DNA of 64,000 nucleotides from Paludibacterium sp. B53371 (GTDB taxonomy: Bacteria; Pseudomonadota; Gammaproteobacteria; Burkholderiales; Chromobacteriaceae). A program made the translations under genes and the position numbers. Below are positions 48,264-53,510 of the stretch, piece by piece (position 1 is the stretch's first letter; every line of letters starts with the position of its first letter). The notes beneath the pieces were generated by a model. The model was not told the DNA's origin. It searched no databases and worked only from the letters and a program-made list of their open reading frames with translations. The stretch covers positions 2,056,311-2,120,310 of the forward strand of contig NZ_CP069163.1 in the NCBI RefSeq assembly GCF_018802765.1, read 5' to 3'.

Positions 48264-49613
48264 ATGACCACCAGCCTGAAACTGTCAGAACTGATCAGCT
48301 CGCTCAGTTACGCCCTCGACATTACCGAAGGGCAGCCTGAAGGCCATTGCATCCGCAGTTGCTGGATTGGCATGCACATCGGTGCCGCAATCGGCCTGGA
48401 CGAGCAACAAAAGTGGGAGCTCTATTACGCCATCCTGCTGAAAGACCTGGGTTGCAGCAGTAACGCTTCTCGCATTTGCGAGTTGTATTTGACGGATGAT
48501 CGTCACTTCAAACAAGCGTTCAAAATGGTGGGGGCCAATCTGCCGCAGATGTTGAATTTCGTCTTCAACCATACCGGCACTCATGCCGGCAATTGGCCGC
48601 AACGGGTGAAATCCATTCTCAATGTACTGCGGCACGGCAAGCAGATGGCCGATGAGCTGATCAATACCCGCTGCCACCGAGGCGCCGATATTGCCCGGCA
48701 GTTGCGCTTCAACGAACAGGTCGCCCGCGGCATTCAGTCGCTGGATGAACACTGGGATGGCTCGGGTCGGCCACTGGGTCTTCAGGGTGAGGCCATCCCG
48801 CTCAATGCCCGTATTGCCCTGCTGTCCCAAGTGCTGGATGTGTTCAACATTACCCATGGCCGGGAGGCCGCACTGGCGGAGGTCACGGCGCGAGCCGGGG
48901 GCTGGCTGGATCCCGCCCTGGTGAAAGTGGCCCAGGGCCTGGCCAGGGATGACGCGTTCTGGCAGCAGCTGGAGGCCGAGGACATCGATTCGGCAGTGCT
49001 GGCGCTGGAACCGGCCCATTGCACGGTGCCACTGGACGAGGACTATCTGGACGAAATCGCCGATGGCTTTGGCCGGGTGGTCGACTCGAAAAGCCCATTC
49101 ACCGCGGGTCACAGCCAGCGAGTAGGCCATTACGCCGACTGCATCGCCGCCGAGCTGGGCATGGACGAGACGCGTCGGCGGTGGCTGAAGCGCGGCGCCC
49201 TGCTGCATGACGTCGGCAAGCTGGGGGTCAGCAACACTATCCTCGACAAGCCCGGACGACTGGATGCGGAAGAATGGGCGGCAGTACAGCGTCACGCCGG
49301 CTTTACCGAAGATATCCTGCGGCGTATCACCCAGTTTGCCGAACTGGCCCAAGTGGCGGGTGCCCATCACGAAAAGCTGGATGGCAGCGGATATCCCAAA
49401 GGGCTAAAGGCGGCACAGATCGCGCTGGAAACCCGCATTATCACCACCGCCGATATCTTTGACGCCATCAACGCCGAACGGCCCTACCACCCGGCCACCC
49501 CGGTCGACAAAACACTGGAGATCATGCGATCCAACCTGAACAGCGCCATCGATCCGGTTTGTTTTGACGCGCTGGAAACCGTCCTGAGACAGGAAGGCGC
49601 ATTAGCCGCATAA
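48264..49613 (+). CDS. HD-GYP protein with a second, degenerate HD domain
   Basis: 449 residues. The second domain is canonical: HSQRVGHYADCIAAELG, LLHDVGKLGVS with the HD pair near residues 315-316, and HHEKLDGSGYPKGL with GYP near residue 375. The first domain (about 1-195) has the same order but KD where HD is expected (LLKDLGCSSNASR) and DEHWDGSGRP in place of the GYP part. HD-GYP enzymes break cyclic-di-GMP, so the C-terminal domain is probably active and the N-terminal one regulatory. No signal or membrane part. Repeat arrays lie on both sides and reach its stop codon. Confidence 0.9.
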   Translation: MTTSLKLSELISSLSYALDITEGQPEGHCIRSCWIGMHIGAAIGLDEQQKWELYYAILLKDLGCSSNASRICELYLTDDRHFKQAFKMVGANLPQMLNFVFNHTGTHAGNWPQRVKSILNVLRHGKQMADELINTRCHRGADIARQLRFNEQVARGIQSLDEHWDGSGRPLGLQGEAIPLNARIALLSQVLDVFNITHGREAALAEVTARAGGWLDPALVKVAQGLARDDAFWQQLEAEDIDSAVLALEPAHCTVPLDEDYLDEIADGFGRVVDSKSPFTAGHSQRVGHYADCIAAELGMDETRRRWLKRGALLHDVGKLGVSNTILDKPGRLDAEEWAAVQRHAGFTEDILRRITQFAELAQVAGAHHEKLDGSGYPKGLKAAQIALETRIITTADIFDAINAERPYHPATPVDKTLEIMRSNLNSAIDPVCFDALETVLRQEGALAA

Positions 49614-50369
49614 GGTGCATTCACGTAGGGTGCATTCACGTAGGGTGCATTCACGTAGGGTGCATTCACGTAGGGTGCATTCGCGTAGGGTGCATTCGCC
49701 GGAGGCAATGCACCAATGCAATGCACCGATGCAATGCGCCGATGCAATGCGCCAATGCCATACCGGATGATGGCGCAATTGAAGATTGCGCCCTACGGAT
49801 GAGCGCATTTTCGACCGGTGCATACGCGCAGGGTGCATTCACGTAGGGTGCATTCGCGTAGGGTGCATTCGCCGGAGGCAATGCACCGATGCCATGCACC
49901 GATGCCATGCGCCGATGCCATGCGCCAATGCCATACCGGATGATGGCGCAATTGAAGATTGCGCCCTACGAATGGGCGCATTTTCGACCGGTGCATACGC
50001 GTAGGGTGCATTCGCGTAGGGTGCATTCGCGTAGGGTGCATTCGCGTAGGGTGCATTCGCCGGAGGCAATGCGCCGATGCAATGCGCCGATGCAATGCGC
50101 CGATGCAATGCGCCGATGCAATGCACCAATGCAATGCACCGATGCCATGCGCCAATGCCATACCGGATGATGGCGCAATTGAAGATTGCGCCCTACGGAT
50201 GAGCGCATTTTCGACCGGTGCATACGCGCAGGGTGCATTCGCGTAGGGTGCATTCGCCGGAGGCAATGCACCAATGCAATGCGCCGATGCCATACCGGAT
50301 GATGGCGCACTTGAAGAGTGCGCCTTACAAGAGTGCGCCTTACAAGCGTGCGCCTTACAAGAGCACGCC
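49614..50369. repeat. Four to five further REP array modules, right of the HD-GYP gene
   Basis: 756 bp made only of repeat modules. Each has 2-5 units of GTAGGGTGCATTCRC, a CGGAGGC centre, 2-7 units of the 13-mer AATGCRCCRATGC, then a ~70-bp conserved linker starting CCATACCGGATGATGGCGC and containing an inverted second palindrome (GGCGCAATTGAAG-ATTGCGCC-CTAC). Linker copies start near 49758, 49931, 50158 and, degraded, 50291. The last ~60 bp switch to a CGCCTTACAAGAGTG variant. The array starts inside the HD-GYP stop codon context and ends inside the trpE(G) stop codon. Confidence 0.9.
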
Positions 50370-52529
50370 CTACAAGCATGCGCCCTCACCGGTTGCCCCC
50401 AGCTTCGCCATCACCGCATTCATCAAGGCCTGCCCCACCCCGAGTGTCATGATCGACTCGGGGTGGAACTGCACGGCGGCCAGCGGCAGCTGGTGGTGCT
50501 CAATGGCCATGATCACACCATCCTCGCTGCGGGCAGTGACCTGCAGGCAGGTCGGCAAGTGTGCCGGGTCGGCATACAGCGAATGGTAGCGCCCCACCTC
50601 GAAGCGCTCTGGCAAGTCCGCCAGCAGGCGGCCGCCCAGCCGGCTGACCGGCGAGGGCTTGCCGTGCACCGGCAGCGGCAACTGGCCCAGCCGACCTCCG
50701 AAATACTCCACCATGCCCTGCAGACCAAGGCAGACACCAAACACCGGAATCGACAGGCCGATCAGGATTTCCAGTGTCTGGCGCATGGCAAAGTCCTCCG
50801 GTCTGCCCGGCCCCGGCGACAACAGCACCAGGTCGGGACGCAGGCCCTGGGCCAGTTGCTGACGAGCCAGCGGCGCACGCAGGGTGTGCACTTCGGCGCC
50901 GGACACACGCAGGTAGCCGGCCAGGGTATGCACGAAGGAATCTTCATGATCGATCAGCAGTACCTGCTTGCCGGCACCCGGCAGGGACACCACCCCGGTC
51001 GCGAGACTGGCGGTGACGGCAGGACGCAGGATGGCACGCTGGGCCGAGGCCTTGAGGTGGCACTCGGCGTCCTCCGCCGCGGCATCACTGTCGTACAGCA
51101 ATGTGGCTCCGGCACGTACTTCGGCCACACCATCCTTGAGGCGCAGGGTACGCAGCGTCAGGCCGGTGTTCATGTTGCCGTCGAAGGTCAGGCGTCCGAT
51201 GGCACCACCGTACCAGCGGCGGGGCGAGTGTTCGTGGGCCTCGATGAAGGCAATGGCCGAGCGCTTGGGGGCACCGGTGACGGTCACGGCCCAGGCATGG
51301 CTGAGAAAGGCATCCAGCGCGTCGAACTCTGGGCGCAGCAGGCCTTCGACGTGATCGACGGTATGGATCAGGCGCGAGTACATCTCGATCTGACGCCGAC
51401 CGATGACGCGCACCGAGCCCGGCTGACAAACGCGTGACTTGTCGTTGCGATCAACGTCGGTACACATGGTGAGCTCCGACTCGTCCTTGCCGGAGTTGAG
51501 CAAGGTACGAATCTGGGCGGCATCTTGCAGGGCGTCCTGACCACGGGCAATGGTCCCGCTGATCGGACAGGTCTCGACACGCTGGCCTTCGACGCGCACA
51601 AACATCTCCGGCGAGGCCGCGACCAGAAACTCGCCCTCCCCCAGGTTCATCAGGGCGCCATACGGTGCCGGGTTGCTGGCCTGCAGCCGGTCGAACAGCA
51701 CGCCGGGCTGTTCGCTGCAGGGCTCGACAAACAATTGGCCCAGCACCACTTCAAACAGATCGCCGCGGGCAAAGGCCTGTCGTGCGCGTTCGACCTGGGC
51801 AGCATATTCGCCGGGGGCATGGTCGCAGGCCGCCGGGGTCTGGCTGGCCAGGGAGTGGTACGGGGCAGCAGCCCCCAGGCGCGGCAGGCCGTGGGTGCGC
51901 TCCCCCTGCAGGCTGAAGTCATAACGCACGGTACGGGCACGTTGTTGCATGTGGTCCACCAGCAGCAGTTCGTCGGGCAGATACAGGACCAGATCACGCT
52001 GATCATCAGCCCGGGGCAAGCGCAGCGTCATCGGCTCGAACTGGAACACCAGGTCGTAGCCGAAGGCCCCATACAGACCGAGATCACTGTCTTGCGGGCT
52101 GGCGAACAGACGGCTCAGGGCGCGCACCAGACTGAAAGCCGAGGGTTGCCGGCTGCGCAGCTCTTCGCTGAAATCCTCGCCGGCCGGCAGAATCTGGCCA
52201 CTCAGCGTCTGCTCGTCTTGCTGCAACTGACTCAGCGCCGGCTCATCTGCCAGCATGGCAGCCAGCCCGGGCAGCAGAGCCTGACCACGCGCGTTGAGGG
52301 CCTCAAGACGAAAAGTTCTGCCACGGGTGGTCAGCACCAGAGGCGGATTAACGAAACCCATATCCCAGCGGGTGTAACGCCCGGGAAATTCAAAGCGGGA
52401 AGAGAACCAGACACCACGCGACTGATTCAGCGCCTCGACCAGCGCGCGGCCCGCCTGTGGGTAGGCACATTCTTCGGTCTGGCGCAGCACTTCGATGCCG
52501 CCCTGGGTGCAGTAACTGACTTCTTGCAT
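50370..52529 (-). CDS. trpE(G): Anthranilate synthase, fused large and small subunits TrpE(G)
   Basis: 719 residues. It turns chorismate and glutamine into anthranilate, the first tryptophan step. The N-terminal ~520 residues are the chorismate-binding subunit (SNPAPYGALMNLGEGEFLVAASPEMFV; CPISGTIARGQD; VTVTGAPKRSAIAFIE). The C-terminal part from about residue 527 is the glutaminase (LLIDHEDSFVHTLAGYL, the nucleophile in FGVCLGLQG near residue 600, and FHPESIMT). The ATG at 52529 has a GGAG site 7 bases upstream. Regulation by a tryptophan attenuator in the leader is clearly visible. Its last codons and stop lie in repeat sequence. Confidence 0.95.
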   Translation of the reverse strand: MQEVSYCTQGGIEVLRQTEECAYPQAGRALVEALNQSRGVWFSSRFEFPGRYTRWDMGFVNPPLVLTTRGRTFRLEALNARGQALLPGLAAMLADEPALSQLQQDEQTLSGQILPAGEDFSEELRSRQPSAFSLVRALSRLFASPQDSDLGLYGAFGYDLVFQFEPMTLRLPRADDQRDLVLYLPDELLLVDHMQQRARTVRYDFSLQGERTHGLPRLGAAAPYHSLASQTPAACDHAPGEYAAQVERARQAFARGDLFEVVLGQLFVEPCSEQPGVLFDRLQASNPAPYGALMNLGEGEFLVAASPEMFVRVEGQRVETCPISGTIARGQDALQDAAQIRTLLNSGKDESELTMCTDVDRNDKSRVCQPGSVRVIGRRQIEMYSRLIHTVDHVEGLLRPEFDALDAFLSHAWAVTVTGAPKRSAIAFIEAHEHSPRRWYGGAIGRLTFDGNMNTGLTLRTLRLKDGVAEVRAGATLLYDSDAAAEDAECHLKASAQRAILRPAVTASLATGVVSLPGAGKQVLLIDHEDSFVHTLAGYLRVSGAEVHTLRAPLARQQLAQGLRPDLVLLSPGPGRPEDFAMRQTLEILIGLSIPVFGVCLGLQGMVEYFGGRLGQLPLPVHGKPSPVSRLGGRLLADLPERFEVGRYHSLYADPAHLPTCLQVTARSEDGVIMAIEHHQLPLAAVQFHPESIMTLGVGQALMNAVMAKLGATGEGACL

Positions 52530-52580
52530 GAGTTTCTCCGGGGTTGGCGCCCGGAGATTTCGGCGGGGGACAGGCAAGAC

Positions 52581-52608
52581 AAAGCCGCTCGAAACTTCCG
52601 GGCGGCTT
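52581..52608 (-). terminator. Attenuator terminator (3:4 hairpin) before trpE(G)
   Basis: Stem AAGCCGC/GCGGCTT around a 13-base loop, followed by T-rich TGTCTTG, 52-79 bases before the gene. The left arm can instead pair with GCGGC just after the leader peptide (about 52631-52636), the antiterminator. The GCTCGA/TCGAGC stem spanning the leader stop is the 1:2 hairpin. Confidence 0.8.
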
Positions 52609-52640
52609 GGTTGGGTTTCAGACACAGGCAGGCCGCTCGA

Positions 52641-52685
52641 TCAGTCGAGCCACCACCAGCCTTGTGTAAGAAATTTGCTATTCAT
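52641..52685 (-). CDS. trpL: Tryptophan leader peptide with three tandem Trp codons
   Basis: A 14-residue reading frame, ATG at 52685 to TGA at 52641, reading MNSKFLTQGWWWLD. Three consecutive TGG codons near the end are the sensor of classical attenuation: starved ribosomes stall there and let the antiterminator form. The stop sits inside the 1:2 hairpin (GCTCGA-CTGA-TCGAGC). No Shine-Dalgarno is visible, and the predicted transcription start lies at or within a base or two of the ATG, so it may be read as a leaderless message. It precedes trpE(G) by 111 bases. Confidence 0.85.
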   Translation of the reverse strand: MNSKFLTQGWWWLD

Positions 52686-52692
52686 GCGGAAT

Positions 52693-52721
52693 AATCTATC
52701 AGGGCATGCCCTGCTGGTAAA
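52693..52721 (-). promoter_or_regulatory. Candidate trp promoter with palindrome in the spacer
   Basis: -35 TTTACC (52721-52716) and -10 TAGATT (52698-52693) with exactly 17 bases between, which hold the perfect 14-bp palindrome CAGGGCATGCCCTG (52700-52713). The start point predicted from the -10 falls at about 52686, next to the leader ATG. The palindrome does not match the enteric TrpR operator. Confidence 0.55.
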
Positions 52722-52739: not shown

Positions 52740-53510
52740 TCATTCGGCACGCGGCGCCGTGACACTGTCGAGCAACGTGTAGCCACGCGCCTTCAGGGCA
52801 GCAGCGAATTCGGCCAGCGCCATTTCGGCCAGGGCGGCCTTGCCGTTGAAGCCGAATTCGATGTGCATCTGGCTGATGCGCTGGTTGCCGAAACTGGGCA
52901 GGCTGGACAGGCGCAGCGCCGGGTAACGGCGGACGAAATCCTGCATCAGGTCGATCAGATCGCCTTCACGCGCCTCGAGGGCAATCAGGGTGCGGTCAAC
53001 ATCCGGCTGGTCACTGAACAGGTGGCGGTAATCACGATCCAGAACGGACTCGATCATCGGCCAGGCCATGGCCGGAAAGCCCGGCACGAAGTGAACGTCC
53101 GCGACGGAGAAGCCGGGCACCTGATTGACCGGATTGAGGATCAGCCGCGCGCCTTGCGGAAAGTACCCCATCTGGATGCGGTGCGGGTAGGCATCGGCAC
53201 CGAAGCGCTGCTCCAGCAGGATTTTGGCCTCGGGATGCAACTCAAGCGGCTGGCCGCAGGCGGCAGCGGCACAGGCGCGGGTGAAGTCGTCCGGGGTGGC
53301 GCCAATGCCGCCGAAGCTGAACACCAGGTCGCCGCTGCCGAAGGCGCGTGTCAGGGCGGCCTGAATGCGCAGCGGATCGTCGCCAAGGTAATCGGCCCAG
53401 GCGAGTTTCATGCCACGGGCGGCGAGGAGGCGGATCAGGGCGGGCAGATGCTTATCGCTGCGTTTGCCGGACAATAATTCGTCACCGATGATGATGGCAC
53501 CGACATCCAT
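52740..53510 (-). CDS. CinA/MoaB-fold (molybdopterin-binding domain) protein
   Basis: 256 residues. The start VGAIIIGDELLSGKRSDKHL and FSFGGIGATPDDFTR are the MoCF-biosynthesis domain hallmarks shared by CinA N-terminal domains. There is no CinA C-terminal amidase domain, so it belongs to the short form found alone in many proteobacteria, with unclear function (nucleotide or pyrazinopterin hydrolysis has been proposed for relatives). The ATG at 53510 has a GGGAG site and starts the fold. Confidence 0.85.
   Translation of the reverse strand: MDVGAIIIGDELLSGKRSDKHLPALIRLLAARGMKLAWADYLGDDPLRIQAALTRAFGSGDLVFSFGGIGATPDDFTRACAAAACGQPLELHPEAKILLEQRFGADAYPHRIQMGYFPQGARLILNPVNQVPGFSVADVHFVPGFPAMAWPMIESVLDRDYRHLFSDQPDVDRTLIALEAREGDLIDLMQDFVRRYPALRLSSLPSFGNQRISQMHIEFGFNGKAALAEMALAEFAAALKARGYTLLDSVTAPRAE

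Follow-up and report, generated by a model that had tools for sequence, protein, structure and literature searches.

The element that precedes the fused anthranilate synthase gene trpE(G) of Paludibacterium sp. B53371 is best read as a ribosome-mediated tryptophan attenuator of the leaderless trpL class, which an ancestor within the genus would have co-acquired together with trpE(G); we put the probability of this reading at roughly 0.87. It would represent a new case of a known type of switch, the leaderless trpE(G) attenuator of alphaproteobacteria, placed most likely by transfer in a betaproteobacterial genus. The element lies within the window, by which we mean the whole stretch of 64,000 nucleotides that was analysed and to which all positions below refer.

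The leader element and its surroundings

The regulated gene (50370..52529, minus strand) encodes a fused anthranilate synthase of 719 aa that contains both chorismate-binding and glutamine-amidotransferase domains and exceeds both curated cut-offs (NF010081, 1091.5 bits; TIGR01815, 1062.9 bits against a cut-off of 739.15). A preliminary description of this DNA had claimed a 14-codon reading frame ending in GWWWLD before the gene, and such a frame is indeed present on the minus strand as trpL (MNSKFLTQGWWWLD, 14 codons and a stop, 52641..52685; ATG 52685-52683, stop 52643-52641), with corresponding peptides in two other genus members and in alphaproteobacteria, and with the trpE(G) start 156 nt downstream. 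Three tandem Trp codons occupy its codons 10-12 (52650..52658, minus strand). Before the ATG, the sequence can be read as a promoter composed of a -35 element TTTACC (52716..52721, minus strand), 17 nt, a -10 element TAGATT (52693..52698, minus strand) and a further 7 nt; in relatives the first of these stands at an equal distance from the ATG, and the second is identical in the related loci L004 and L006.

The mutually exclusive 1:2, 2:3 and 3:4 stems that had been proposed around GCGGC and GCCGC are legible in the sequence, recur in relatives and covary. Strand 1 (52645..52654, minus strand, as are those that follow) is seen in the single-sequence and the consensus fold and would pair with strand 2 if the ribosome is absent. 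Strand 2 (UCGAGCGGCC, 52631..52640) stands immediately 3' of the leader stop, and strand 3 (AGCCGCCCGGA, 52597..52607) is the partner either of strand 2, as an antiterminator, or of strand 4 (UCGAGCGGCUU, 52582..52592), as a terminator; strands 2 and 4 are both backed by alignment and covariation. The motif UCGAGCGGC is present in strand 2 and again in strand 4, and each copy pairs with the GCCGC of strand 3. For the leader RNA the calculated folding energy is -44.9 kcal/mol (z -2.1), a value equalled by 4 of 200 shuffled sequences.

A 14-bp palindrome, CAGGGCATGCCCTG, lies inside the promoter spacer (52698-52715), and we rejected it as a conserved operator, as it is absent from L006 and a different inverted repeat is found in L004. 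TrpR was detected in none of the six genus genomes, and in the E. coli control it was detected. On the far side of the gene, positions 49614-50384 are filled by repeats of 15 bp (GGTGCATTCGCGTAG-like) and 13 bp (GCAATGCACCAAT-like), arranged in part as 173-bp units; they separate the end of trpE(G) from a gene that ends at 49613.

Proposed mechanism

We infer the 5' end, the termination step and the response to tryptophan in what follows from the arrangement of these parts. RNA polymerase would begin with the first base of the trpL start codon, and a ribosome would load on the resulting 5'-terminal AUG without the aid of a Shine-Dalgarno sequence. When tRNA-Trp is charged, the ribosome would get to the stop codon and hide strand 2, so that 3:4 could pair and transcription would presumably terminate, with release of an RNA of ~105-110 nt. 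When tRNA-Trp is uncharged, the ribosome would stall at the UGG codons 10-12 and leave strand 2 free, and the ensuing 2:3 pairing would allow trpE(G) to be transcribed.

Constrained folds behave in a manner compatible with this scheme. With nt 1-57 masked to mimic a ribosome on the stop codon, 2:3 is gone and 3:4 remains (-15.7); with nt 1-45 masked to mimic a stalled one, and with strand 4 still to be synthesized, 2:3 forms at -13.5 kcal/mol. When strands 2, 3 and 4 are all free the fold prefers 3:4 over 2:3, so 2:3 must form first; we have assumed this kinetic order, with 2:3 in place before strand 4 is synthesized, as it is assumed for other attenuators. Taken together, the leader, its Trp codons and the mutually exclusive stems support attenuation as the probable function.

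A crude pairing test of the leader RNA against the start regions of the native trpD, trpG and trpE genes gave z-scores of -0.5 to 0.2, with controls at -1.6 to 1.4, and thus no pairing that stood out there. The best pairing internal to trpD (-83.3) lies beyond those of six controls (-74 to -79), and we gave it no weight, as it comes from a crude score that takes no account of accessibility and was compared over few genes.

Promoter spacing and predicted leaderless translation

The preliminary description had placed a -35/-10 pair with a 17-bp spacer such that transcription starts at the leader ATG, and had seen no Shine-Dalgarno sequence there. The pair is present with the spacing found in relatives, and because the -10 element stands 7 nt upstream of the ATG, the start point is predicted to fall at the A of that codon. 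The anti-Shine-Dalgarno duplex is calculated at +0.4 kcal/mol at the leader versus -6.6 at the trpE(G) start, where a GGAG (52536..52539, minus strand) serves as the Shine-Dalgarno sequence; the leader is accordingly without one. As such, leaderless translation of trpL in the window is a supported prediction from promoter spacing and the missing Shine-Dalgarno sequence.

The same geometry extends well beyond the window. Among 30 non-redundant leaders (near-identical ones having been removed), 21 carry TTG at -39 to -35 and TA at -15 to -11 of the leader ATG, whereas shuffled sequences average 0.30 and never exceed 3, a control which overstates significance because the 30 leaders are related. 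The window itself is outside these 21, with TTTACC in place of a TTG element at the same spacing. Across the 30, the median anti-Shine-Dalgarno duplex is -1.9 kcal/mol before the leader versus -6.3 before trpE(G), and a match of -4.5 or better precedes 5 leaders versus 23 trpE(G) starts; given those five Shine-Dalgarno-like matches, leaderlessness is not universal in the class.

One may argue that the attenuator is real and not leaderless, its transcript starting further upstream or arising by read-through from the cinA-like gene, and its leader being translated from a longer 5' UTR. This gene lies on the same strand and ends at 52740, only 54 nt upstream of the leader ATG, which makes read-through possible, and the promoter hexamers are weak (8 of 12 positions agree with consensus, and a simple scan did not call them). 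We nonetheless consider this account unlikely: the leader ATG is devoid of a Shine-Dalgarno sequence in all three genus members that carry the gene, in each of which trpE(G) has one; for most of the clade the promoter-like pair stands at a constant spacing from the ATG; in the relatives G040 and G042 a ydcF-like gene replaces the cinA-like gene upstream and the promoter is still retained; and Sinorhizobium meliloti, whose spacing is equal, is reported to have its 5' end at the ATG. From the constancy of this distance, leaderless translation would seem to be a design feature that the class has conserved, and no oddity of Sinorhizobium.

Conservation of the leader and its stems

Within the genus, the trpL peptide and its register are kept in all three genomes that bear trpE(G), namely the window genome, G040 and G042. 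The leaders of the latter two, MDTTFYTYGWWRLD and MDATFHTFGWWWLD, begin 156 and 154 nt before trpE(G) and are preceded by TTGCTT-17-TAGATT, with 7 or 6 nt then remaining to the ATG. Of a wider collection of trpE(G) loci, 102 in number, 82 carry a leader in which Trp codons are adjacent (some genomes being counted twice, and many being Bradyrhizobium), 11 have none, and 9 have less than 150 nt of upstream sequence. The leaders recovered from Bradyrhizobium resemble MSTAVAPARLWWRTS, the leader given for that genus in PMC7298713, and serve as a positive control. Of the 11 loci that lack such a leader, L062 is matched by our RNA model at 39.4 bits, and the model has no match at the other ten (the six fused genes L034-L039 of the order and class samples, one MAG each of Legionellaceae and Acidimicrobiales, and the alphaproteobacterial L071 and L072).

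Trp-codon leaders also precede trpE(G) in two further MAGs, one labelled as Pseudomonadales (L118) and the other as Chloroflexi (L065), and the model match at L062 stands before trpE(G) in a MAG labelled Deltaproteobacteria; these may reflect either further transfers or misplaced contigs.

By script, a terminator was found in 26 of the 30 non-redundant leaders, starting between +69 and +83 in 21 of these, and for 18 of the 26 the 2:3 pairing was superior to that of shuffled sequences (p <= 0.05); L074, L080, L137 and L145 gave weak hairpins only (-2.7 to -7.6 kcal/mol). The covariation search in related genomes that had been suggested earlier was carried out on an alignment of 18 leaders, three from the genus and 15 others, in which some rows start a few codons inside the leader by choice of coordinates. 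Eight of the 26 leaders with a terminator by script were omitted (L065, L066, L068, L074, L080, L118, L137 and L145), and as these include the weakest, conservation in the alignment is biased upwards. No variation is seen across the 18 in the TGGTGG of the leader, in CGGCC (strand 2), in GCCG (strand 3) or in GCGGC (strand 4). The consensus fold comprises stems 1:2 and 3:4, in which four pairs are double-changed. Of the two competing stems, 2:3 shows the stronger covariation, greater than in any of 500 shuffles; its pairing amounts to 96.8%, and two of its pairs are double-changed, a number that 7 of 500 shuffles attain. For 3:4 the pairing amounts to 97.6%, with a single double-changed pair (no fewer in 210 of 500 shuffles) and a covariation that 4 of 500 reach. 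Columns 51 and 52 of strand 2, which have columns 38 and 37 as partners in 1:2 and columns 87 and 86 in 2:3, tend to change together with both sets, as is consistent with alternative pairing.

A covariance model of the 15 leaders from outside the genus (model R2) finds the window at 51.8 bits (E 6e-13) and the loci L133 and L132 at 49.7 bits each. The full model finds four leaders absent from its training at 58-83 bits, from lineages near its members, and gives the Bradyrhizobium locus L074 only 13.2 bits.

One weakness of the element is its terminator. The T-rich tail of the preliminary description is there (UUUGUCUU, 52576..52583, minus strand), and yet it is only moderately U-rich; after the longest stem the tail reads UUGUCUUG, and a simple terminator scan made no call on the minus strand. 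Moreover, a C in strand 3 (nt 85) stands opposite A in both 2:3 and 3:4, where the two relatives have a pairing T. Such features are what one would expect of a decayed, non-functional relic in which the stems persist and termination has been lost. We judge this very improbable, however, in that the three Trp codons, the reading frame, the position of the stop and the 3:4 stem (-13.1 kcal/mol) have all been retained, and the corresponding stems of the two genus relatives are stronger.

Origin of the gene and its switch

The fused gene is sparsely distributed. Proteins over the TIGR01815 cut-off occur in 3 of 61 family genomes, all three in this genus (the window, G040 and G042, out of six genus genomes), and fused trpE(G) occurs in 2 of 399 order genomes and 6 of 369 class genomes sampled, each count including the window's own. 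The six genus genomes all possess a trpE-like gene (a TIGR01815 match below cut-off) and trpG as well. No leader with adjacent Trp codons is found within ~200 nt upstream of the native trpE start; short reading frames with such codons occur elsewhere in the 14-kb native locus and have not been placed as leaders, and a search for a relocated leader in the genus members that lack trpE(G) gave no convincing match.

The surroundings of trpL-trpE(G), for which the gene names livG, livF, ydcF and cinA were assigned from sequence, are shared in the genus: livG, livF and ydcF are clustered in the five loci with enough sequence, and ydcF is present in all six. A cinA-like gene follows ydcF in G039, G041 and G043, which have no fused gene over the cut-off, while trpL-trpE(G) follows cinA in the window and directly follows ydcF in G040 and G042. 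The TrpE(G) of G042 is identical to the protein of a Paludibacterium MAG record, L040.

Among the best 80 of 141 loci, the closest trpE(G) genes after those of Paludibacterium (78%) are alphaproteobacterial, at 64-68%, with Telmatospirillum at 66%. In a midpoint-rooted tree of 57 rows, 48 of them different and several on long branches, the genus genes join a set of 35 rows that are alphaproteobacterial, labelled only Proteobacteria, or unnamed; the branch has a support of 94/95, just below the mark for strong support. Seven fused genes of Gamma- and Betaproteobacteria form a separate clade, and a topology that puts these seven and the genus into one group is rejected (AU p 0.0002), by a test in which the group was picked after inspection of the tree. 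The preliminary description had left a choice between deep conservation and transfer of the leader with the fused gene; the sparse distribution, the alphaproteobacterial branching and the AU rejection argue for transfer over deep conservation, and gene and switch most likely arrived together, it would seem from alphaproteobacteria. As GC and GC3 of trpE(G) match those of neighbouring genes, the transfer would not be recent.

Fused trpE(G) genes are also found in other Gamma- and Betaproteobacteria (L034-L039, L111 and L167), one of them on a 63-kb plasmid of Legionella adelaidensis, and the attenuator model has no match at these eight loci. The existence of such sparse genes in the order and class is what could be said for deep vertical conservation, under which gene and attenuator would be ancestral to Betaproteobacteria and mostly lost since, a highly improbable account in that the six such genes sampled have neither an adjacent-Trp-codon leader nor a model match and fall in another clade, in that grouping those six and L111 with the genus is rejected, and in that the family genomes with the gene are so few and have trpE-like and trpG besides.

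A second Trp-codon leader, before a transporter gene

The attenuator model also matches, at E <= 0.1, in 54 of 61 family genomes, many of these matches being weak and probably due to chance. Of the listed matches, 49 were inspected besides the three trpE(G) loci, and 21, from 21 family genomes, precede a gene for a ~437-aa sodium-dependent transporter of the SNF family; two further such loci, L221 and L222, belong to another family. These transporter leaders (L171-L188, L191, L192, L206, L221 and L222; for example L173:1486-1597 in G018) are short and in 20 of the 21 family cases contain adjacent Trp codons, L187 having WRW, and 22 of the 23 are headed by TTGAC[G/A], 18 nt, a CATGCT-like element, 6 to 10 nt and the ATG, L191 being the one that differs. 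Their 3:4 stem is nearly invariant and its covariation negligible; their 2:3 pairing reaches p <= 0.05 in 6 of 22 and lies between 0.05 and 0.1 in most others, and in rows so closely related this is no more than suggestive. The nearest solved chain to the transporter is 4us3, which we take to be MhsT, its structure presumably solved with tryptophan. No Rfam family matched above gathering in six transporter-leader loci; the L175 leader has a sub-threshold match to CC0196 (27.6 bits against a gathering score of 35). A homologue of the transporter (E <= 1e-60) is found in 78 of 399 order genomes, and among 30 order loci inspected, two of which were short of upstream sequence, adjacent Trp codons are seen in L222 and doubtfully in L246. 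The window genome has only a 42% relative of the transporter. We regard the transporter leader as a probable Trp attenuator of an amino-acid importer with a near-leaderless layout; within the titles and abstract openings of open-licence papers, we found no description of a trp or transporter attenuator in Paludibacterium or Chromobacteriaceae.

These leaders raise the question of whether the window attenuator could be home-made, recruited from a Chromobacteriaceae transporter leader, with its alphaproteobacterial likeness a matter of convergence. The two kinds share TGGTGG, GGCCGCC, GGGCGGCC and a near-leaderless promoter, a transporter leader (L191) occurs in a genus member without trpE(G), and several transporter leaders outscore S. 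meliloti under the trpE(G) model: with the model from outside the genus, S. meliloti, the experimental reference, scores 28.8 bits, and four of the eight transporter leaders to which this model was applied score higher (29.6-40.1), so that the classes overlap and scores alone do not separate them. A recruitment of this kind seems to us very doubtful all the same, since the window scores 51.8 bits with that model versus 27.3 with the transporter-leader model, since L191, held out of both, gives the reverse (25.9 versus 52.0), since the promoters are unlike (TTGCTT-17-TAGATT in the genus relatives versus TTGACG-18-CATGCT), and since the trpE(G) gene itself groups with alphaproteobacterial genes.

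On these comparisons the window leader looks to be of the trpE(G) type, and the two kinds of leader may be related, perhaps through one ancestor. We advance only tentatively, at somewhat less than even odds, the broader notion that leaderless Trp-codon attenuators form a broader, reusable class which moved with trpE(G) from one bacterial class to another and in a second version sets tryptophan import in many Chromobacteriaceae. If this were true, tryptophan import in this family, beyond synthesis, would be set by ribosomes on a 5'-terminal AUG; in any case, the transporter leaders offer a second setting in which to pursue the question of the leaderless design.

Comparison with known systems

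The co-acquired attenuator proposed here suggests that a complete unit of promoter, leaderless leader, attenuator and enzyme gene can outlast transfer between bacterial classes. Survival of the attenuator after such a transfer would be expected, given that ribosomes, tRNA-Trp and RNA polymerase are all it requires.

With the classical trpL of E. coli the window shares its tandem Trp codons, its alternative stems and a terminator placed ahead of trpE. The latter differs in having a 5' UTR with a Shine-Dalgarno sequence, a TrpR operator and a separate trpE.

Among the alphaproteobacteria, the leaders of Telmatospirillum, Roseomonas and Bradyrhizobium are like that of the window in length, position of the Trp codons, stems and ATG-anchored promoter, and in most the terminator starts near +76. 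Outside Bradyrhizobium their peptides often end in WWWPV or WWWPL, in contrast to GWWWLD in the window, and the core of strands 2 and 4 is GGCGGCC, where the window has UCGAGCGGC.

The closest described parallel is S. meliloti, as the preliminary description had proposed for Sinorhizobium, and this likeness is borne out in the promoter-ATG geometry, the WWW leader and the fused gene. The S. meliloti trpL RNA is reported to start at the ATG (PMC7298713, PMC10117765), and the former paper reports roles in trans for rnTrpL and peTrpL. In the annotated trpL of CP090106.1 we observe TTGCGC and TAACAC at nearly equal distances to the ATG, the promoter standing 8 nt before it, together with a 14-codon WWW leader in a leaderless layout, GCCGCC/GGCGGC stems and the fused trpE(G). 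The two peptides are unrelated outside WWW, and the trpE(G) of the window, in contrast to that of S. meliloti, adds an anthranilate synthase to a genome that also has trpE-like and trpG genes. The S. meliloti attenuator RNA (L166:625-720) matches the Rfam family RF02552 (RcsR1) at 98.1 bits; Rfam has no match at gathering in the window, and RF02552 is not reached up to E 5 in the window locus L005. In a permissive search of four loci, RF02552 is found in that of S. meliloti and misses the corresponding element in those of G000, Telmatospirillum and Rhizobium sp. Q54. By its testable features, then, a strong U-tract and a match to RF02552 excepted, the predicted switch of the window belongs with the leaderless trpE(G) attenuators of alphaproteobacteria.
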